From assembly GCF_000004825.1 (NCBI RefSeq), contig NW_008805063.1:868857-932856 (forward strand): a stretch of DNA of 64,000 nt, written 5' to 3'. The translations under genes were made by a program, and so were the position numbers. Within the stretch, counting starts at the first letter, position 1, and every line of letters starts with the position of its first letter. This DNA comes from Heterostelium album PN500 (Eukaryota > Evosea > Eumycetozoa > Acytosteliales > Acytosteliaceae). Shown here piece after piece: positions 28,086 to 42,632 of the stretch. Under the pieces are notes generated by a model, which made no database searches, had not been told where the DNA came from, and saw nothing but the letters and a program-made list of their open reading frames with translations.

Positions 28086-31000
28086 ATGAGTACACCAAAT
28101 AAATCAATACAATCTTTGCCATTTGGCGGTAATAGAACCTCTCCATCTAAACTTACATCAAGCTATAAGCCACCTATTTCCAATGAAGAATCTCAGAATA
28201 AATATATGCATGGATATAAGACTTTAGAATGTAACACTGTTGCAAAGAAACAAGAATGTATTAAAGACAGAGATTGGTAAATATTTTATTATAAAAATCT
28301 TTGATTAAATAATATCTTAAAATAAATATTAATATTTATTTTTATTGTTTTTTTATAGCTTCTATTATCATAAGAATGAGGAAAAGAGAAGATGTCCCTA
28401 TGATCAAAATAATAATATTGTTTACTCTCATTTGATTTGTCCAGAAAAATGTGGAAAACCAAATGTAAATATAAAATTACAATAACTTTGTTTAAATTAT
28501 TTTTATTAATAACCTTTTTATTTATTTTAGTGTAAAAATTCACATAATGATGTGGAAGTTATGTACCATCCAGCTATTTATAAGACAAAGTTGTGTAATG
28601 ACCATGCTAACAATAAGACTTGCAAGAAAGGAAGATGGTGTGCTTTTGCCCATGGCGAGTCGGATCTCAGAGTCGGAGTATCAGACAAATATAAATTCCA
28701 AGAGAATTCAAAGACTCCTGTCAAAGCCAAGAGTTCACCGACCTACAGTAATACTTCATCCTATTCAAAAGATAGTCTCGGCAGTGTCATCGATTTGAAT
28801 TGGTTGTCCAACGGTCTTTCCAATGGCAACAGTAACGGTAGTTTTCATTCTCACTTTCTGTATTCGCCAAACAACAAACTGAATGAGCCACACATTGGTC
28901 ACGGTGCCAACTCTATGTTTGGATACCAAGCCCCAACGGACCTTGTATCGATCAGTACTTTGAAATACTATCCAGAGCACTATGATCCAACTACTTTAAA
29001 CAATTGTAATTTGGAGGTAAGTTCAACTAATATTTAATTTATATTTAATTAATGAAATATTAATATTTTTTTCTTTCTAATTTTTTAGAAAACTCTTCGT
29101 TTTGGAGTTTTGCGTGTTGATAAAACAAATCCATTGAATGCTTATCTTGATACTTCCAATATTCCCCAGGATCTACAATCATCTATCAGTATCGATCTAA
29201 CACTAAATTCGTCGGACAGAATTGCTATCTTTGGTCTATACAACCGAAATCGTGCTTTAGATGGTGACTTTGTAGCTATCAGTAATATCATGCCTTCAAA
29301 GTTGGAGAGCTCTGGAGATTCCTACGAACATAATCTAGATAAGGAGATGGAGCAATTCCTGCCCATCACAGCGTCAATCAATGGTTGTAGCCAAGCACCT
29401 TCGCCTGCTCCTCACTCACTTACAGGAAGAGTAGTTTCAATTCTGAGCTCCAGTCATAAGCAATCGTACTGCTGTTTCTTCAAGAAACAAAAGGGTGACG
29501 TCACTTACTTCTCTACCTATGACAAGAAGATGGTTGGCATCATAGTCAAAGGAATCATTCGGGTGCCATCACCAAAGACTCTTTTTGAGATTCAGCTACA
29601 GCAGTGGCCAACTAACTATCCGCTTCCAATCGGCGAGATTACCCAGACCATCTCAAACTATGATGATGTAACTCAAATGATTCAAGTAGGTTTTCAAATT
29701 GTTATTGTTCTTTAATTAACATTATACTAATATATCATAATTTCTCTCTAGCTTCTTAAAACAGAAAATAAAATCATTGATAGTTTCCCTGCTCAAATGA
29801 CTAATGAAGTTCAACTTTTGGGTTTAAAGTCACTCAATATCACCAATGCTCAAAAGAGAAAGGATTTAAGAAATTTGTTTTCTTTTTCAATTGGTGAAGC
29901 TATTCTTGATGAACAAACTGTTTTGTATTCATGTAACAAAGCTGCAAATGGAAATATCATAGTAAGTTTTTAATTATAAATTATAAAGATATATATATAT
30001 TAATTATTGACTTTTTATTTTTTATTTTAGTTTTCTGTACATGTATCTGATGTAGCATTTTATATTAAACAGAAGAGCGTCTCGGATACTGAGGCAGCTT
30101 CTAAAGGTTTCAGTATTAATATGGGTAGTTTCTCATCGAAACTATTTCCACCGGATCTTTGCCAACTGTTAAGATTTGAACCAAGAAAGGATAGGTAAAT
30201 TATTTTAAAATTACTTCAATTTATTATTATTTCAGTTACTAATCAATTGAATTGTTTATTATAGATGTGCGATTACGATTGAATGGGAATTTTCTTCAAA
30301 TTTTACCATTGTTGAAACCTACATATATCAATCGATTGTTAACTCCAACTGTCACTTATCATATCGAGATATTTCAAACATATTCAATAATTCAAACAAC
30401 GAATTATCTCAAGAATCGTCCCATTCAATCGAATTGGTTACTTCATTACGAGAGATGTTCAATGGTATTGAAAGTTTCTATGGAAAGTTCTCACAGCAGA
30501 CTTTTAAAATCTTTCATTCCTACAAAAAGAACCATCTTTCGACTGAAGAATTGAACTATCATATCTTGGTTGAGCAAATCAAACTGATTGCAAACTACAT
30601 CGCCAGCAACATCAAGGTGGATCAAGCTATCTACATGGCTTCGTGCAACCGAATACCTGAGCCTATGATCAATCAAATCAAGAAAGAAATAGAGAAATAT
30701 GAATCTATATTCCCGAGCAACATCAACTTGGATCTATTGACACTTGGCGATCTCCTATCGTATGTGTCCAACCTGAACACCCAGAAATACTTTGTCTCAG
30801 AGATTGAAAAATCTGGTCATTTGGTGCGTTTCACTGGTGAGAAGGATCAAATGTTTCTCCAATTCCCTTACATGTTTGAAATTACCAATCCTCTCGAGTC
30901 TTATGTCGATCTGTTCAACCAGAGACTGGTTCTACGAGTTTTGAATAGTGACAAGATAGACTCCATTGATGACCTGCTGCCAAGTCCATTCAAGTCGCAG

Positions 31001-34000
31001 TCCAATCTTATCAGTCACTTGCAATCGAGCTACCAGAAGAAAGTCAAGGTGGAGCAAAAGTTTAACCACATCGAATTCAATCATCTAATGAAGTCTAGAC
31101 CGTACGAAACTCAAGGTTTGTTGGTCAGTGTTGATTCTTCTGTCATTGGAATCTGGGTAGAGAAGCTCAATAAGACACTCTTCATAGATCTCAATCAAAT
31201 CAGTGGTTGTCGTCATACTTGGATGTACTCTACCAACTCACTTTGGATCGGGTGGAATACCAAATATCTGGGAATCGATTGCACAGACTGTGTAAGAAAA
31301 TCAATTTCCAATTCACAGGAATCTATTATTCCAGTGAATATTCATCAACAGGTGTCAAAGATAACATCATTCGGTCCGTCCAAACCAACTTCCATGCACT
31401 TGAAGCTCTTTGATCGTATTCAAATCCAAGTTGCAACCTTTGAATCTGCACCAACCAAGCAGGAGAACTATATTCAGTTCCTCTATGGTCTCAAGGATAC
31501 AATTCCTTCATGCTTTGAGCACCTGCAACATCGTGAAACCTTCTTACATAACAAATATCCCATGGAAACAATCTCAAGACCAATAGACTCTGATATTACC
31601 TATGTTAACTACTGGAATACATTGGTTGATCTAAACTCTGTTCATGTAAGTATCTAATCAGTCAATCTTAAAGTATATTATAAACAATATTCTTAACTAA
31701 TGATTAATTATTGTAGAAGAGTTTATCAAAGAGTTCATCGATTTTTGCATTCAATGTATCTATTTCATGGAGTAAGAAGAAAAAGAAGTATGTTGGTTCC
31801 TTCAGTATTCCACTCGACCACAACACCAGCAATGTTATGATAGCACGTGGTGATTTCCTATGCCTGAGATACACAAACGAAGAGAAGAGTAATTTATCGC
31901 TTCATACCCTCTTGACAAAGGCAAGCTATGATGAGAAGGCAGGAAAGATCTTGATCAAGTTCTCCATTAGATCTCCTAAGCTTACACAGAAATCATTTTC
32001 ACTGGTAAGATAAATTGTGATCTATTTTAATAAATTTATATTCTCTTAATTTTTTTTTTAACTTTAGGAAATTATTCTAAGAGATAGTTTTAATAGATCT
32101 CTTAGTGAAGGAGTTCAGAATTTCCCAAACATTGATGAGGTCTTACGTATTCTTATCTTGGACCAGTATCCACTCAAACTATGTGGTGTAGTTCCAGAGA
32201 ATCCAGTCGATCTCAACTCACTCGCGCTTCCTTTTACTCTTAGTGGTGAGCAATCCATAGCAATTCAAAATTGTATCCATAGTCCATTCACCATTATTGA
32301 AGGACCACCTGGCTCTTGGTAAGAAAATTACTTGTTATATTTTTTAATTATTTTTACTAATTTTTTTATTTTTAAAGTAAAACAACTATTGCATCTATAG
32401 TTTGTCAAGTTGCTATTGGTGATCAAGGAAACAATGGATTCATCTCTAAGATTTTACTTTGTGGTCCAAACGATTTTAGTGTAGATGAATCTCTGCGAAA
32501 CTTGAAACAGTTATTCCCAGCCATCAAGGCTTTGAGAGTTTATGGAAATGATTTTTTGGAAGACGATGAAAATGGGTATTTATTATGTAATTAATTAATT
32601 TTAACTATTTATCTAACAATTTTTTTTTACTTCAGATATGTCATTACAGAAGATATCAAGAAGCTTTCTTTACAATATATGATCGAGAATCAAAAGAATA
32701 GTTCTCCAAACATGGCTAGCAGAGATCTAGAGGGAATCAGTATGTATTATTTACTTTAATTATTTATAACAATTTATTAATTAAATTATTAGTTTTAAAT
32801 GAACATAAGGTTATATGTTGTACTTCAATTGTCTCAATTGAGAAGAGAATCTCTGATTTGAATATTCATTGGGTGGTCATTGATAATGCCAATGAAGAGT
32901 TTGAGCCTTCTACTCTGTGTGCTCTTAACAAAGCCAAACATGTTGTGTTGCTTGGTGATGTAATATCTGATTTTGAAAGTAAATTTCAGTTCATTAGATA
33001 AAAAAAAAAGTACATTTCTAACATTTCTTTGTTTTTATTTTTTATTTAAAGATACTCAAGTGTATATCAAGAATCCAACAATGAAGAAATGTTTTACTCG
33101 ACCTTTGGCACATAGACTCACCAACATTGAACCAATGAAGCTCAAGTCTTTGTATAATATTCCAAATGTATTCTTTGAGCTACTCAACTCAAAGGAATTA
33201 TCAAAGGTATTTTTTATTTATAATTATTTTTTTAACAATTCAAATTAATTAATATTTTATTTTTTCATTAGAATGATTATAAACCAATGCTTACTTTCTA
33301 CAATATTCCTAAATCAGAGGAGAAACTAGATATCAAATCTTTTGACACTATTGAAGACAACCTACACACAAAGTTCTTTAATATTACTGAAATAACATTT
33401 GTAAGCTATTGTTAATTTGCTATTATATTTTTTAAATAATATTAATGTTTTAATTATTTAGATCAAGTTCTTGGTTAAGTATTTAATTAACCAGAAGAAT
33501 ATCGATGCCAAATCTATTGTTATTGTTTCACCATACAGCACTCAACGTTGGCTACTCAAAAGACATTTCTCTTCAACAGGTGGATTCGAAATCAAAGTTA
33601 TGTCTCACCAAGAGGCTCAATACTCCAAGAAAGAATATGTCATAGTATCAATGGTTAGAACAAAAAAAATCGAAAATCTTGATATTTCGAATGAAGATCA
33701 ATTTGTATGTATTTAATTTATTGTTTTATTGTTTTATGTAATATACACTAACATTTTTTATTATTTAGTTGAGAAATCTTTTACTTTCAACAACCAAAGG
33801 TGTACTATTTATTGGAAGCATTCATAGCCTCAAAGTTAGTCAACAATGGAGCTCATTTGCCACCAAGATTGAAAGTCTAGATATGATTCAGAATGTGGAA
33901 AACATCAACTCTAACCTCATATGTACTACAAAAGATTATGAATCTTTTACCAAACTCACCGTATTTGAAACCGTGGAATGTCCAAGACTGGACCAAATGA

Positions 34001-34053
34001 ATAGTAATAAAGGTGAACTCTCAATCATTTCAGAGTTTTGGAAACAAAATTAA
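28086..34053 (+). CDS. CCCH zinc finger - RNB - SF1 helicase fusion, enzyme motifs degenerate
   Basis: Sixteen exons join in phase to 1657 aa (28086-28276, 28359-28464, 28531-29016, 29089-29685, 29752-29961, 30031-30194, 30265-31645, 31717-32004, 32068-32318, 32378-32575, 32636-32739, 32793-32978, 33052-33206, 33272-33400, 33462-33704, 33769-34053). Residues ~50-140 hold unkempt-like CCCH fingers, best seen in YKTKLC...C-x8-C-x5-C-x3-H at 121-140. About 260-720 matches the RNase II/DIS3 family: cold-shock-like GVLRVDKTNP...RNRALDGDF, then RKDLRNLFSF, FSVHVSDVAFYIK and CAITIEWEF. The active-site acidic cluster is changed (SIGEAILDEQTV where DIDDA is expected). About 1140-1600 is UPF1-like SF1 helicase: GPPGSCKTT for GPPGTGKT, VVIDNAN for the DEAA box, LLGDVISDFE for GDxxQLPP, and LLLSTTKG for the ALTRAK motif. 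The combination recalls HELZ2. An RNA-binding pseudoenzyme scaffold is inferred. Confidence 0.88.
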
Positions 34054-34368
34054 ATAAATTAATACAATTTTAAAATATAATAATTATTTGCACTTCAAAT
34101 AATCATCTGTTTAAAAATCAATCAAAGTCGGAAAATAAGCAAACCTGTGACATCACTTTCTTGTTTGGTTTTTTTTTTTCAGTTTTACAAAAAATCTCAA
34201 CACGTTTAGACTCGATAAAAATTCATACCAGGGATTGAAAGATCTTAAAATTTTCGAGCTACAGTTTTTCTTTTTATAATTTTATTCAATACCAAGATTT
34301 AAATATTTTTCAAACCAGTTATCTTTTATTTTATAAATTTGCAAAATATATTATTCAACACATATACA
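34054..34368. other. Spacer upstream of saposin-like gene
   Basis: About 315 bp, AT-rich; 3' flank of the helicase fusion and promoter of the saposin-like gene. Nothing else seen. Confidence 0.5.
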
Positions 34369-34728
34369 ATGAAAAAATTTGGATTATTTTTATTAGCCCT
34401 ATTGGTTTGCTCATTCCTGGTTGAATCGATTCAAGGAGACAAAGAAGCTGACAGAAAGAGAGAAGAAGAGGAAAGACGTATCAGATGTCAATGTTGTAGA
34501 GACACTGCAGTTGCCTTCAAGAAATTATCCAAGAAAAAGAATCTTCCTTGGGGAGAATCTCAAATTGCTCAAACTTTGGTTGCTGCCTACAGTCTGGAGA
34601 AGGACCCATTCACAAGAGACACATGTATCTACGTTACCAAAACCTTTGGTCACTACTTTGTGGTTGAATGCTTCCAAAAGGAGAAATTACCTGAAGAAGT
34701 TTGTGCTGGATTGGGATACTGTAAATAA
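34369..34728 (+). CDS. Secreted saposin-B-like protein
   Basis: Single exon, 119 aa. The first in-frame ATG gives a clear signal peptide, MKKFGLFLLALLVCSFLVESIQG, so the protein enters the secretory route to the lysosome or outside. After a highly charged spacer (KEADRKREEEERR) the cysteine pattern C-x-CC ... DTC ... VVEC ... EEVCAGLGYC fits a saposin-B fold with three disulfides: paired helices held by Cys, and the usual P-x-x-V-C-x-x-L-x-x-C ending. Saposin-like proteins bind or extract lipids, and some relatives in amoebae permeabilise bacterial membranes; nothing here decides between these roles. It is a single domain without a prosaposin-like array. It ends 156 bp from the convergent TPR gene. 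Confidence 0.8.
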   Translation: MKKFGLFLLALLVCSFLVESIQGDKEADRKREEEERRIRCQCCRDTAVAFKKLSKKKNLPWGESQIAQTLVAAYSLEKDPFTRDTCIYVTKTFGHYFVVECFQKEKLPEEVCAGLGYCK

Positions 34729-34884: not shown

Positions 34885-37800
34885 TTATTGATTATTTACA
34901 ATGAAAGTAGGATTAAAAAGAGCAATGGGAATGTAAAACTCCTCTTTCAAACTTTGTACCGATGAGATAAAGAATTGGTATCTCTCTTTTCTGGTTGGTG
35001 GATTGGAATTCTTGATATTCTGCTTCAAATGAGCATCATATATCTTGAACAATCTACTCATAATTTCTTTTTGCTTCGAATAGGGTATAAATAATACATT
35101 ACAAATTGGTTTACTCCTATATTGATTTAAATGTTAAACAAAGAGTTAGTGATATAATAACATTTAGTAAAAAGTATGTTATTTGTGATTTTACCTTAAT
35201 ATAAATATTGGGAGTTGTGATAGATCGACAATATCATTGTAGGCAAAGATAAATACAGGGAAATGAATGGAGTCATCGAAACTCTCAAGGAAATGAACGA
35301 CACCCGATGTCTTATTGGTGGCCACATCGAAAAAGTCGAGATACTTGTATTTCTTCTTGGCGACCGCTGGTTTGACACCCAACTTTATCAATGGCGAGAG
35401 ATATGGTTGATTTTCATTTGATACTCTTGTTGTTGTTTTCTTTAAGATGTTTAATTAAATATTAATAAATGAATTGATATCGATTTGTAAAGAGAATTCA
35501 ATGAAAACTTACATTTATAGTTGTATACAAGTTATATAATATAGACTTAACTTGTTGATCTTTTTTCACTGGATCATTGTAGTGTGATTTGTCAATGACA
35601 GAGTTACAGCAACTGATAAAACATGGTATGATACCGTTCTCTTGATTCTCTGGGTCACTTATGTCTATGTAGTTGGTACGCATTAAATCGTAGAGTGTCA
35701 GGTATCTGACCATGAAGTCGGGTATGATCAATTCCCATGGGAACACTTGTAGACTCTTTGAACAAATAAAGATCAGTGGAGTGGTTGAGATATTGGTGGT
35801 CGGCATGGTGCTTGTAGTGGCATCTTTGTTGGAACCAAAGAATACAAATGTCTTGCTTTGTTTCTTAGAGGACGATGATGCCGATGGTTTAATGCTGTTG
35901 GAGTCTGGCTTCTCGGTTGGAAGAATCTCAAAGAGCGATGAGAATGTGGTGTGCTTGAGTTCGGTGATGATCTTCTTGCGGTCGACCTCCTCTTGTATCG
36001 AGTCTTTCGATGGAACAAGCGAAAGAAGTGGCAGGAACGATGAAAGTATCTCTGGTGTGAATGTGATGGCTTGGTCATTGGTTGGTGCCGACTTGCTGGT
36101 GGTTTGTTGATCCAAGTTGGTCTGTGACTTTTTCTCTTCACCGTTGTTGACAAACAGTGAGAGTTGCAATGGATTCTGCTCGGAACATTCACGCATCTCA
36201 CGGTGGGAGAACACCTTGCAGATCTGGTATGAGAGTTGGTCGAAAGATACATATGCTTTGGCATAGGCAGGATCATCACTTTTAATCATACGCTTGGTGA
36301 ACGAGATAAGTGAGAGTTGTTGATGAGAATATACCTTACGAGGAGTGGATGAACCGACGGACATGGAACGACCGTGGATGTCTTGATTGTGTTGCTGTTG
36401 GTTGGCATGGGTGATGTTGATGGTTGGTAGATTTGGTTGAGTGTTTATGTGTTGGTGATGAACAGCATGCTGGTGGTGATTGTTGATATGGATCGGTGGT
36501 GAAGTCGAGTGGAGAGTTGGGGTGTGAGGATGATGATGATGATCTTGTTTGTCGGCGGCACGTTCCTGAGGGGGCGAGTCTGAACCAGAGCTGTGGGTGT
36601 CTTCATCGGTACCTGGCACACCGATAGTGGAATTCAAGAAAGAGATCAACTCATTATGGAAGTTTGGTGTTTTTTCAATAAACTTTGGTGTGGATTTGAA
36701 CGAGTTGTTGGCAGCTCTGCTGAAGGATCCAAAGAAACTCTTCTTCTTGGAGTCGGAGCTATCCACTGCCCAGTATGGCTTGTTGCACAAGAACAGCAAG
36801 AGCTTCTCAAGAGTGATCAATGGACTGACAACAAATGAGACTTTTTCATTGGCGTTGGACAAGAGATAGATCTCGAGATACAACATGTTGGTGGGTGGTG
36901 GCATTGGAGTCAACTCCTCAAGTCCACCGATACGGTTGAATCTCTTGCGACCTGTATGTGGAACGTAGTGGATAAAGTAGTTGTCGACCTGCAGTGAATA
37001 AACCAACTTTTGAAGAGATGCATTGATTTTTGCTTGTGCTGCAGAGAAGGAGAGTTCCTCATATTTCGAAGAAAGATTACGAACTGTTCCCCAATTGTTG
37101 GCGTTACCACTGCTGCTGCCACTGTTGGCTCCAGCGTTTGAAGGAGTGCGTGTACGACCGGAATCTGTAGTGCTGCTAGTATTTCCATTGGCAATTGCAT
37201 TTAGATTCATCTTTGTTTGTGATCTAAAGAGTGATCCCAAACTGTTGGAACTCTGAAGTGGAACTGGATAGTTGGTTGGACTACCAGCATGCTGATTGGC
37301 CAAATGATTCTTGTAGGACAATTGAATCTTTAGTATCTGCTTAATGGTGACTTTACTACGAGTACACAACTCTTCCTGTGTAATCTTTCCAATTGAGTAT
37401 TTTCGAATTTCGTTGCTAATGGCATGTAGGGATCCCCAGATCTTCTCTCCTACTTCATCGCCAGTGTTTACTGACTTCTCCTCATCCTTTGTCTTCTCAT
37501 TGAATGTCAATGTCGATAGCTTGTTCTCTCCGTCGGCACCTGTGCTGTTGCTGCCGTTGTTGTGGTTGGGAGTTGGAATGTTATCCATTGACAGTGCGCC
37601 AGTCATCTCTGTCTTTCTCTTAAAGTTTCTTCCGAGAGTGTAGGATTTACCGAGATATGGCATGTAGATCTTTGAAATCTGTGGATTCGACTCATAGGAT
37701 AATGGTTTGTTCAACTCGATATTACGCTTCTTGGCTTGCGAGATATCGATCTCCAAAGAGAGATAACTATCGACCAACATGAGATTCTTATTAATGAAAT

Positions 37801-40800
37801 CTTGGTCAAATGCAAACAGGAAACGAATCATACGCTTGCAAGTGCTGAACAACTTTTTCAAGAAGAAGAGCGGTGCACTCTTTCCAATGAGGTGAGGTCC
37901 GTCACAAAACATGGTAAAGTAAAGATTACGACACTCTGTCCAATAGGAAATGGCAAGATCTCGATCACCCTGGAGATATCTGAGCTCTGCCATATTCATA
38001 TAGTTTCTAAGAAGTTGAATTACATTGCATGTATCGATATTGATATCCATAGCAAGAATAGCTGGATTCTCAATGATCTCAAAGGAGATGTAAAACTCTT
38101 TGAGTTCAACCATTGGTGGAGATCCAGGTGGTTTAGCTGGTTCTTCTTTCTTCTTGTTTCGCTTGTTCTTGTCGTCCTGATAGAGTTCACCGTCTTTCTG
38201 AATGAAACGAGACGGTGTGAAATGAGGAAGACGTGCAACATCGTCGAATTGATAGTGAAGCAAAGCAACCGGTCCAAACACACGATCCAAATAGGTCTCT
38301 GCAATACGACTGACTGTCTTTTGAATACGAACGTCGTCACCAATCGATTTGAAATAGTTGTAGGCACGTTTGAAACTTGCAATTCCTTCCTGCATGAGAT
38401 CGCCAGTGCAGGTGTAGGTGGTCGTTGGTTGATTGACATCGACAAACTCTTTCCACTCTTCAGAGGTTGGCTTCAAAGTGGTTGGGAATGTAATGAGTGT
38501 TGCATTGGAGAACGACACCAACTTTTGGAAGATCTTTCCACGCAAGTAGAAATATTGTCCACGAGCATTCAGTGAGCTTGCCGGACAGATCTCGATGGCA
38601 CACTCAATGCAAATCAATGCCTCTGAGAATTTGTTGGCATGCAAATAGTTGATACAGTTAAACTCCCAGTATTTCAGATTGCGTTCATTCTTGTTGTTTC
38701 CGCTGCCACCTGCTGAGCTGTGGAACGATGCCTTGGGTGTGGCCGAGGTTCTCAGAGGATTGTTTCTGTTGGCGGCGCCAGAGAGATTGGTGGTGCTTGT
38801 CGACTCTTCGTTCTCCAGTTGATTCAGCGCAGCAGTGCAGTGGTCGTACCACTCCAATTTGGTGTAAGCTTTAGCCAGCAGGAACAGCAGTGAGTTCAAC
38901 TTTCCATGTGGCAACTGGTGTTTACGCATGGTAGTCAAAAGCTCGAGTCCCTTCTCAAAGTGATAGCTCTCCAGATAGAGATTGGCAAGTTTCAAGTGCA
39001 GTTGGAAAAAGATTGGATTATCGAATTTCGGTGATTCTAACTTGTTGAGTGACAGTGCACTCTCGTGGATTGGCGAACTGGATTTCTGGAGAATGAGGAA
39101 GACAACCTTGAGATACTCCTCCGATTGTTTGTAGCATCCTTTCTCCCAGTAGAGTGTCGAGATTACATCGCAAATATATATGATTTCATTGGTTTTCGAT
39201 TGGGGGTCGTCTTCCAGGTAGTTGTTGAGAATCTGTTTGTAGTAGTAGATGGCCGAGTTGATATCGTCGTTCTCTCTCGCCAGCGCAGCAACTCTTCTCA
39301 GTAGAGTGTTGTATTCTTTCTTCTTACGAATGTTATAGACGAGCAAAGCATTGTCAAATGAAACGATTGCATATTGATATTTGTAGTTATCAAGTAGAAC
39401 ACCTGCATATCCAATCGAGGCATTCGCTGACAACTCTGACAGAACGAGTGGCAGTCCGACTACCGGTTGTTTACACTTATCGATAATATATAGACATTCA
39501 AAGAAGAATTTCTCTGCTAGAACTAAATCACCTGTATCCACTGCGTGCAAACCAAGTGCGTATGCTGCTTTTGCCTTGAGAAAAGTGGTCGGAATCTCAA
39601 GGTAGAGGTCGGTCAGGAGCTTCATACGATGATTGGCATCGAGAAGATCTGCCATCTGCGAATTTACATTGACATCCAAGTATGGCTCACCCAAACGTTT
39701 AGTTGTCAATGGTGAAATACCATTCAAATGGAAGTGAATATCAATCAATGCTCGAACCATTGCATTCTTTGTACCGATTTCCAGAAACTCTTTCGATGAT
39801 GTCGATGACTTGTTATTGTTACTGCTGCTGCTGTTGTTGTTGCTGTTGATGTTGAGAGTGTTTGCTTCTTGTTGTTGACGAATACGACATTGTTGATAGA
39901 TTCTAAGGAATACATTTAGTGGATTGATCTTCTCCTCTTCGTTTCCAGAGAATTCGTCGGGACGCGTACGCAACTCTGGTTCTTCGTCGGAATCAGTGTA
40001 GTCAGAGTTGGAGTCGTTGTCAGAATCGTCTCTGGACTTGTGGTGAAGATGATGCGAATAGGTCTCGGCAACCAATAGATCGACATGTGGCGAGTTTGTG
40101 ACGGATATGTTTCGCAGTCCGTGGAACATGTGCTTGAACGATGCATCTTCCTCGGGCTTCCACAGCTTGGCAGCCAGATACAACATCTGCAATGCATAGT
40201 GATAGGTTGCATCCTTCTCGTCGATCTCGATGGACAATCGATTCTTTCCACCGAGTGGCGATGAATGCTGGGTTCCAAGTTTGGCGCGCGACGACGACAT
40301 TGGCGACGCGGTTCCGCTGTCGCGCAGATCCAAAAAGAACGCCTGTATCGTCTCCCAACACTGTTCGTCGTGACCAAATATATGCATGGTATAACAGAAT
40401 TCCAAATTCAACTGTGCCCACTTCTTTGTGTTTTTCTTGTACTTTGAGGTTCCCAGTGCAAAGTCGTTGCGCAGCTCCTCGAGCGACGCCTTCTGGGGAA
40501 GCACGCGCAGTGCTCTGTCCTCGCCGTTGAGATGTTTGACGATCAGGCTTGACAGCCACTTGGAGAGTGCTTCTTCGTGTAGGAACAAATGTCCCTCGGG
40601 TGTAGTTAGAGAGTAGAGATACGATGGCTTCGGGTACTTTACAATTTCGAATGTCTGGTTGTTGATGCTCTCGATCAGTTTGTAGTGTGACGGCATACGA
40701 TCTTTGTTGGGCGCGACAGACGGCGACTGTCCGGCGAGCTGGAGAATCGGACGACTGTCTTCCTCGGCGTCCAAGCCAAGCTCTGCATCCCAGTCCTCTT

Positions 40801-42632
40801 CCTCCTCCGATTCGAAATCCTTGATTGTCGACGCGTCTTCGTTTGCCTTGTTAGTAGCCAGTGCAGTGGCGATGCTCTGGTTCTGGTTGGCAAACATCAG
40901 AAGCGCGCGATTGATATCCCCATACAATAATATACACTCATTCTCCAGCGATCGATCATTAATAGCGCCGCGCTTCAGTGAACTATATGCCTTTTTGATA
41001 AACTGCAGCGCCAGATCAAACTCATTCAGAATCTTTAGGGTCTTGCCCATCTGCAGACAAGCCGACGCCATCCCACTCCAGTCGCCAATCTTGGCAATGT
41101 CGACGCCACAATCCTTGGAGTGCTGGTGAGCGGCGGTGTTTGTGCACTGTGCAAAAAGTATAGACCGTAGAAGATTCTCAAAGAACTTGGTTGCGTAGAT
41201 CGGTGTCTCCGTGGTCTGGTAGCAGACACCGAGTTCCAAGTTGATCTTTTGGTAGATAGCAGTGAATCGCTTCAGATCGCTCTGACTGATGTCCAACGCT
41301 TTCTTTAGATACTCTGTCGTATTGAATATGTTTGCCATTGCCTTTGATGTTACACCCAACTGATACAACAGATTCAACTCGTGCTCATCGTTGTTCTCGT
41401 CGATCGGTGTATCGAAATCGTCTTTGTACTCTTGCAGTATCTTGTTTGCCGTTGTGAAGTGATTCGAAGCATTCAGTGTCTGTTGATTCTGCTGATAGAT
41501 CATACCCAACTCGTAATACTTTTTCGACAACTCCAACTTTGATTCCTTCAAACTTGCATTCTCTATCAATTGCAATTGATTGTCTATTTTCTTTTTCAAT
41601 TCAGATTCTATAGAAGATAATTAGTGATTAATAAACCTAAATAAATAATTAACGAAATCTATCTGCTCTTTCATACCTGAACATATCTTTAAACTATTGA
41701 TTGGTGGTGTTTTTGATTCTACAATTTGTTTATCACTTAAATCTACATCATTTCCAACTTGTTTTTTTTTTGTTTTTGATAACACAATAAAGTTAATAAT
41801 GTGTGTTAATAAACAATAAATATTGAACAACAAACATACAATTTAAAAGTTGGAATAACTCATGTATTGAATTTGAAAGTTTGGCATCGCTAACTAATAC
41901 GGATGGACCAGATCTTGCTCTTGTTAATATATTTCCTGCTGGTGTAAGTAATGATTTGTTGTTTGTTGATTCTGACTCTGAACTATCGTTGAAAAGAAAA
42001 TCGTCGTCCCACTCTGCTTTGGTAGTAGGATCCGCTCTAATACCTAAAATCTTCATTTGTGGAGCTCCACCACCACCACCACTTGTTGGACTTGCTGTTA
42101 AACTACTACTCATATTGCTACTATTATTGTTGTTGTTGTTATTGTTATTGTTGTTATTATTTCCATTTAATAAACCAGCTAATGGACCTACACCACCACC
42201 ACCTGCACCACTTGAAATACCGAAATCAGAATCCCAATCTTCATCTTCGTCTTCCTCTGCCTTACGATTTTCAAGGATCGATTTCGAGGGTGACGATGTT
42301 TTTGCCCAGTCGTCATCGTCGTCATCGTCGTCGAACCCACTGAAATCGCTATTACCACCGTTGAACATCGGTGGTGTATTGGCACCGCCGACACTAGGTG
42401 TGTTGCTGCTGTTATTATTATTATTATTGTTGTTGTTGTTGCCATTGTTATTGTTATTACTATTACTATTTAGTGAATTCGATGAGTTTGAAGGACTTCC
42501 TGCTACCAACTGGTGCGATGACTTCTTCTTTGAGAGATGTCCAATCGTCAGTTTTCTCTGTAATGAATTATTGATGTTTGGTTCGATTCCGAAATCGGAA
42601 TCCCAATCTTCATCATCATCTGCACCTGCCAT
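34885..42632 (-). CDS. Giant TPR-like protein with repeated DWDxDFG motifs (2481 aa)
   Basis: Five exons (42632-41840, 41757-41677, 41607-35513, 35439-35195, 35116-34885) join in phase. The N-terminal ~560 residues carry a repeated acidic Trp motif: EDWDSDFGI at residue ~8 and again at ~135, AEWDDDFLF near 210, and EEDWDAELGL near 560, set in poly-Asn and Asp-rich sequence. Such short acidic Trp/Phe motifs usually dock onto partner proteins. Most of the rest is TPR-like helical hairpins (ELGMIYQQNQQTLNASNHFTTANKIL; AYALGLHAVDTGDLVLAEKFFFECL; ANLYLESYHFEKGLELL; NCINYLHANKFSEALICIECAIEI) broken by Ser/Asn/His-rich inserts. Near residue 2240, IFICSKSLQVFPWELIIPDF resembles the Pro-Trp-Glu strand before the CHAT/separase-type protease core, but I do not see a convincing His-Cys pair. 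No membrane segment. Probably a large scaffold; no named orthologue recognised. Confidence 0.85.

Follow-up and report, generated by a model that had tools for sequence, protein, structure and literature searches.

The stretch of Heterostelium album PN500 DNA analysed here (64,000 nucleotides, contig NW_008805063.1, positions 868,857 to 932,856; hereafter the window) carries on its forward strand, between positions 28086 and 34053, a gene that joins an unkempt-like cluster of CCCH zinc fingers, a DIS3-like RNB region and a UPF1-like superfamily 1 (SF1) helicase. Our analysis shows that these three modules of RNA metabolism, each still recognisable by homology, share one open frame, and that both catalytic centres, as read from alignments, are lost. 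Splicing of 16 exons gives a frame of 1657 amino acids with zero internal stops and no frameshift, just as a preliminary description of this stretch had it, whereas the two remaining forward frames of the same spliced sequence contain 68 and 159 stops. All 15 introns are clean GT-AG introns of 53–82 nt, and GC content is 0.365 in the exons versus 0.128 in the introns; the open frame and this difference in composition are indirect signs that the gene is kept by selection. It could be argued that the model fuses two neighbouring genes, one for the CCCH part and one for the RNB-helicase part, as these are connected only via predicted intron 3 (29017–29088). But this intron is a clean 72-nt GTAAGT...AG intron of phase 0, little intergenic space would remain between the two genes, and exon 7 holds the end of RNB, the S1-like part and the start of the UPF1 homology, so that a fusion by error is scarcely credible.

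From N- to C-terminus the protein consists of the CCCH cluster, a Ser/Asn-rich linker, CSD1-like and CSD2-like regions, the RNB domain, an S1-like segment and the UPF1-like helicase. Pfam matches and a phmmer search of PDB sequences (by region: UPF1, E 6.3e-22; DIS3/RRP44, E 1.9e-16; unkempt, E 7.4e-8) bear out the earlier claim that CCCH, RNB and helicase parts lie in one chain. In the profile searches that the preliminary description had proposed for RNB and SF1, PF00773 (RNB; 110 bits versus a cut-off of 29.3, profile positions 1–325 of 326, aa 496–812), AAA_11 (80.5 bits) and AAA_12 (52.9 bits; cut-offs 27) all exceed their thresholds. Residues 41–142 align to the unkempt structure 5elk over three fingers (E 4e-8). 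Fingers 1 and 3, read from the sequence, have C-x8-C-x5-C-x3-H spacing with intact zinc ligands, and the middle finger is shorter; PF25427 (UNK CCCH finger, cut-off 31.1 bits) gives 31.1 bits for the N-terminal fragment, 34.5 in a six-frame genome search and 27.2 for the whole protein. The CSD1-like and CSD2-like regions rest on DIS3 alignments and neither exceeds a Pfam cut-off: the CSD1-like fragment matches no Pfam family, and PF17849 reaches 20.1 bits (E 6.6e-4) on the CSD2 region, under its 22.8 cut-off. PF18141 (UPF1 1B) is also under its cut-off of 28.5 (20.9 bits, E 3.6e-4, profile positions 5–93 of 93), and a six-frame genome search with it at E up to 1 lists UPF1 itself only, not the fusion gene. 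Pfam searches of the whole protein at E up to 1 gave no match to RING or to UPF1_Zn_bind (the CH domain), for which the genome's own UPF1 scores 233 bits.

The RNB active site was compared with 83 relatives, namely the best 80 bacterial loci and three proteins of the same genome. At the four metal-binding Asp columns, D in 83/83 relatives, the fusion protein has G508, E514, T516 and V517, and in place of the Arg pair, RR in all 81 relatives that cover these columns, it has E796 and S797. Neither the Dx5DxDD metal site nor the RR pair of active RNase II/RNB exoribonucleases is therefore found in it. The acidic-site alignment needs no gap, because the spacing between two anchors (DLR and the VHxxDV motif) equals that in the genome's own DIS3. 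The preliminary description had called the RNB core degraded, and the loss turns out to be larger than it stated (4/4 Asp plus the RR pair); its reading of the expected DxDDA as LDEQTV was right in that the acidic cluster is lost and these residues overlap the site, but the D of LDEQTV is not among the four Asp. Tyr618 (Y in 83/83 relatives) and Glu688 (E in 82/83) are kept.

The helicase core is degenerate too. Its identity to own UPF1 is 26% in a pair alignment, and of the columns conserved among nine own-genome helicases it keeps 22/37. Motifs I, II, III and VI of active UPF1-like SF1 helicases are all altered at catalytic positions. In Walker A, GPPGSCKTT, the P-loop Gly is replaced by Cys1225 while Lys-Thr is retained; in motif II, VVIDNAN, the Glu is Asn1357; motif III retains Gly-Asp and has lost Gln-Leu; and the alignment to own UPF1 puts Ser1570 and Thr1572 in place of the motif VI arginines. 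These results agree with the earlier claims of an altered Walker A and Walker B, of a motif III without its QLPP end and of a motif VI without its arginine. The QYR motif has also lost its Gln and Arg, motif V has lost Asp and Gly and retained one Gln, and motif IV retains Gln-Arg. An atypical active enzyme, with metals supplied by E514 or other acids, would be in line with the conservative change to Glu at one of the four sites and with the retention of Y618, E688, the Walker A Lys and the motif IV Gln-Arg. The other three Asp, though, have become G, T and V, both Arg are gone, and the helicase lacks its motif II Glu and its motif VI Arg as well, which makes such activity very unlikely.

Table 1. 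Features of the fusion gene (positions in the window)
Feature	Positions	Strand	Basis
Whole gene	28086..34053	+	16 exons, 15 introns; ATG at 28086, stop codon ends at 34053
Unkempt-like CCCH cluster, aa 41-148	28206..28677	+	spans introns 1 and 2; 5elk alignment; PF25427
CSD1-like region, about aa 262-380	29089..29445	+	exon 4; phmmer alignment to human DIS3 starts at aa 301
CSD2 (OB_Dis3-like), about aa 383-495	29452..29856	+	spans intron 4; PF17849, 20.1 bits
RNB domain, aa 496-812	29857..30946	+	spans introns 5 and 6; PF00773, 110 bits
Former RNB metal site G508, E514, T516, V517	29893..29922	+	four Asp columns, D in 83/83 relatives
Former RNB arginine pair E796, S797	30896..30901	+	RR in 81/81 relatives
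S1-like barrel, about aa 865-995	31103..31495	+	exon 7; weak support from predicted model
UPF1 1B-like domain, aa 1058-1144	31753..32076	+	spans intron 8; PF18141, 20.9 bits
UPF1-like RecA1 and RecA2 cores, about aa 1199-1600	32239..33879	+	exons 9-16; AAA_11, AAA_12; UPF1 alignment
Degenerate Walker A, GPPGSCKT	32302..32384	+	Cys codon split by intron 9
Degenerate motif II, D1356 N1357	32882..32887	+	own-UPF1 alignment, conserved-column comparison
Degenerate motif III, GDVISDF	32954..32974	+	own-UPF1 alignment, conserved-column comparison
Degenerate motif VI, LRNLLLSTTKG	33769..33801	+	alignment to own UPF1

The possibility, raised earlier, that other splicing might restore the motifs was checked near Walker A and near the acidic cluster; neither site was restored. 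At Walker A, GT/GC donors at 32286–32360 were combined with AG acceptors as far as 32420, and three of the pairs stay open in frame: the sole GT-AG one gives the Cys, and two GC-AG pairs delete the motif. At the acidic cluster, none of the GT-AG pairs whose donor lies at 29601–29990 produces Dx5[DE]xDD. A splicing variant restoring catalytic motifs is thus ruled out for the combinations enumerated at these two places. A motif VI-type [ST]R[ASCP][RKV] is absent from every frame of 33601–34060.

The rest of the genome (32.93 Mb in 39 contigs, the window being in contig C2) provides a control. All 13 other UPF1-like genes keep the P-loop Gly, the motif II Glu and the motif VI Arg (the 16 rows of the UPF1-like listing are the fusion gene, these 13 and two second pieces), and five of the six other RNB genes have Dx5DxDD, with the Arg pair present in the same five; both totals, 13 and six, are lower bounds. 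The acidic cluster of the sixth RNB gene, on contig C7, reads IDSNNIVGAEDA, so the fusion gene is not alone in having a changed acidic cluster. This C7 gene (L025 2633–4651, G000:C7 about 309.6–311.7 kb), whose upstream open reading frame (ORF) resembles a mitochondrial N-terminus, is perhaps Dss1-like. A further RNB gene, L030 (G000:C33), has the signature DSKKTKDVDDA, differs from the DIS3- and DIS3L2-like genes and might be a candidate for the RNII-like branch of Amoebozoa. Among the helicases, closely similar UPF1-like genes form two tandem pairs, at G000:C3:136000-145500 (L050) and G000:C10:1990500-2000499 (L053). The six other RNB genes and the 13 other UPF1-like genes are on different contigs or at least 149 kb apart, and no catalytic version of the fusion was seen in the same genome. 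No relatives turned up in viral contigs, whether the query was the whole protein or the helicase alignment.

As to the origin of the parts, the helicase matches after UPF1 in the phmmer search of PDB sequences were yeast NAM7 (1.6e-15), SMUBP-2 (0.0021) and DNA2 (0.82). Own UPF1 scores 64.3 bits and the next of nine genes compared 36.6; a second own-genome comparison gave 57.6 and 35.8 bits. In a helicase tree, which includes nine of the 13 other own-genome genes (four with cores split over frames were omitted), UPF1 is nearest by path and by identity (25% over 468 columns) with no supported clade, and the branch of the fusion gene is very long, 3.89 changes per column. By score, the DIS3-like gene on C24 comes closest to the RNB part among own-genome genes. 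Ballou et al. (PMC8097288) describe a branch, aRNIIL, of RNase II relatives from Amoebozoa that falls outside Dis3, Dis3L1, Dis3L2 and Dss1, and the fusion gene may or may not belong to it.

It is more difficult to place the gene relative to animal HELZ2. HELZ2 carries CCCH fingers, and the human protein is reported to be active although one residue of its catalytic centre is substituted; judging from the alignments, the fusion protein has lost more catalytic residues than that. In the accessible part of PMC9839780, HELZ2 has two helicases flanking RNB, and its Asp, Walker A Lys and Walker B Glu are conserved and could be mutated there. The order of RNB and then an SF1 helicase at the C-terminus resembles the second half of HELZ2 as outlined in that part, and the gene could be a dictyostelid orthologue which lost the first helicase and the activities. 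But the fusion protein has a single helicase, at its C-terminus, with no second one listed on contig C2 by the genome searches; this helicase matches UPF1 best among the solved structures and own-genome genes compared; and it has a weak match to UPF1 1B (PF18141 below cut-off). PF25049 (HELZ2 OB) was not recognised in the whole protein (E up to 1) or in the CSD1 fragment (E up to 10) and is below cut-off in own DIS3 (19.3 bits) and in the C11 gene (21.6 bits), a result that tells little because no CSD1 family matches the fragment either. Taken together, orthology is unlikely. The likeness to HELZ2 seen in the preliminary description thus holds for the similar parts list and not for the layout, with one helicase instead of two, or for the nearest match by score, which is UPF1. 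Kinship with HELZ2 appears weak, and it seems more likely that UPF1-like and DIS3-like parts came together separately than that the gene belongs to the HELZ2 family.

We think it moderately probable that the fusion protein is a double pseudoenzyme and works as an RNA-binding scaffold or competitor, a role that we infer from the residues lost. A binding scaffold had been suggested before and is still the best inference from the double catalytic loss; the regulator of innate defence suggested along with it finds no support in the present analysis. It should be noted that several observations weigh against this reading. The RNB is diverged throughout, with 23/60 of the columns conserved at 95% or more kept, while by the same measure three own-genome RNB proteins, which belonged to the 83 used for choosing the columns, keep 51/59, 50/59 and 30/36. 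Catalytic columns are lost in 6/6 cases (P 0.046 versus random loss), a mild concentration which also fits general relaxation. The predicted model of exon 7, which covers one exon, has low confidence (mean predicted local distance difference test score, pLDDT, 55.9; predicted template-modelling score, pTM, 0.44), and its fold match is not independent because its alignment was built from bacterial RNase R sequences. The loss of the RNB site is clear in the alignment, yet not sharply separate from general divergence.

A decaying gene, from which constraint has been lifted, whose frame is open through recency and which has no present function, could account for the degeneration of both enzyme cores, for the long helicase branch, for the loss of 37/60 conserved RNB columns and for a GC content at third codon positions (GC3) of 0.36, lower than 0.42–0.52 in three compared genes. 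Against it, 1657 codons and 15 clean GT-AG introns are without a stop or frameshift, the introns being 12.8% GC, and codon usage still correlates at 0.69–0.85 with three other genes. So long a branch combined with an open frame suggests constraint over most of the history of the gene, and we regard decay as rather unlikely.

If the fusion protein is indeed a double pseudoenzyme, it probably binds RNA or partner proteins without cutting or unwinding RNA. The CCCH cluster, in which fingers 1 and 3 retain their zinc ligands, would select RNA targets, and the cold-shock/RNB/S1 body together with the UPF1-like body would provide RNA- or protein-binding surfaces. Bound transcripts might then be repressed, stored or marked via recruitment of other factors, the protein itself neither degrading nor unwinding them; alternatively, it may compete with DIS3 or UPF1. 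Yeast Ssd1, as an mRNA-binding RNB pseudonuclease, and HELZ, as a CCR4-NOT recruiter, could serve as working models by analogy. A bolder and more tentative proposal is a lineage-specific 'dead degradosome', in which a DIS3-type exonuclease body and a UPF1-type helicase, both catalytically silenced, and an unkempt-type RNA reader, assembled independently of HELZ2, form a dominant competitor or scaffold that times the decay of selected mRNAs by the real DIS3 and UPF1.

Two ORFs follow the gene in the window. Just downstream, at 34303–34728 (+), lies a small cysteine-rich, secreted-looking ORF (Pfam Saposin 14.6 bits, below cut-off), and at 35498–41620 (-) a single-exon ORF of 2040 aa has TPR-like and low-complexity stretches; its C-terminal part, searched with a query whose first two residues were wrong, had no Pfam match above cut-off.

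RNB pseudonucleases in fungi and the coupling of RNB to helicases by HELZ2 in animals are known already. Among the matches listed from the open literature, seen as titles and abstract openings, none describes a chain with both RNB and helicase dead, or a CCCH-RNB-UPF1 fusion in dictyostelids. If the gene is conserved, it would allow what DIS3-like and UPF1-like folds do by binding to be told apart from their catalysis, in organisms amenable to genetics, and would place a CCCH-RNB-helicase layout outside animals.

Unkempt has two CCCH clusters; the fusion protein shares with it the three-finger cluster, but has one cluster and no RING found by Pfam at E up to 1. UPF1 gives the best match to the helicase part, over a stretch that starts ahead of 1B and takes in RecA1 and RecA2; the fusion protein differs from UPF1 in the CH domain, not detected here as UPF1_Zn_bind, and in the catalytic motifs, which it has lost. 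HELZ2 likewise has an RNB and a UPF1-like helicase within a single chain, but its RNB lies between helicases, while the fusion protein has one helicase and both cores degenerate. HELZ, which in the accessible part of PMC6769256 induces decay of tethered mRNA via CCR4-NOT, is drawn there as a DEAA helicase protein whose C-terminal half is unstructured, no RNB being described; a CCCH finger and a UPF1-like helicase are common to both proteins, and HELZ acts by recruiting decay factors. Ssd1 descends from Dis3L2, and the RNB site was lost repeatedly in fungi, according to the available portion of PMC8097288. Neither a CCCH cluster nor a helicase is described for Ssd1 in the part of PMC8934651 at hand, where the protein is said to bind mRNA likely through its cold-shock domains; what the fusion protein has in common with Ssd1/Sts5 is an RNB whose metal site has been lost.

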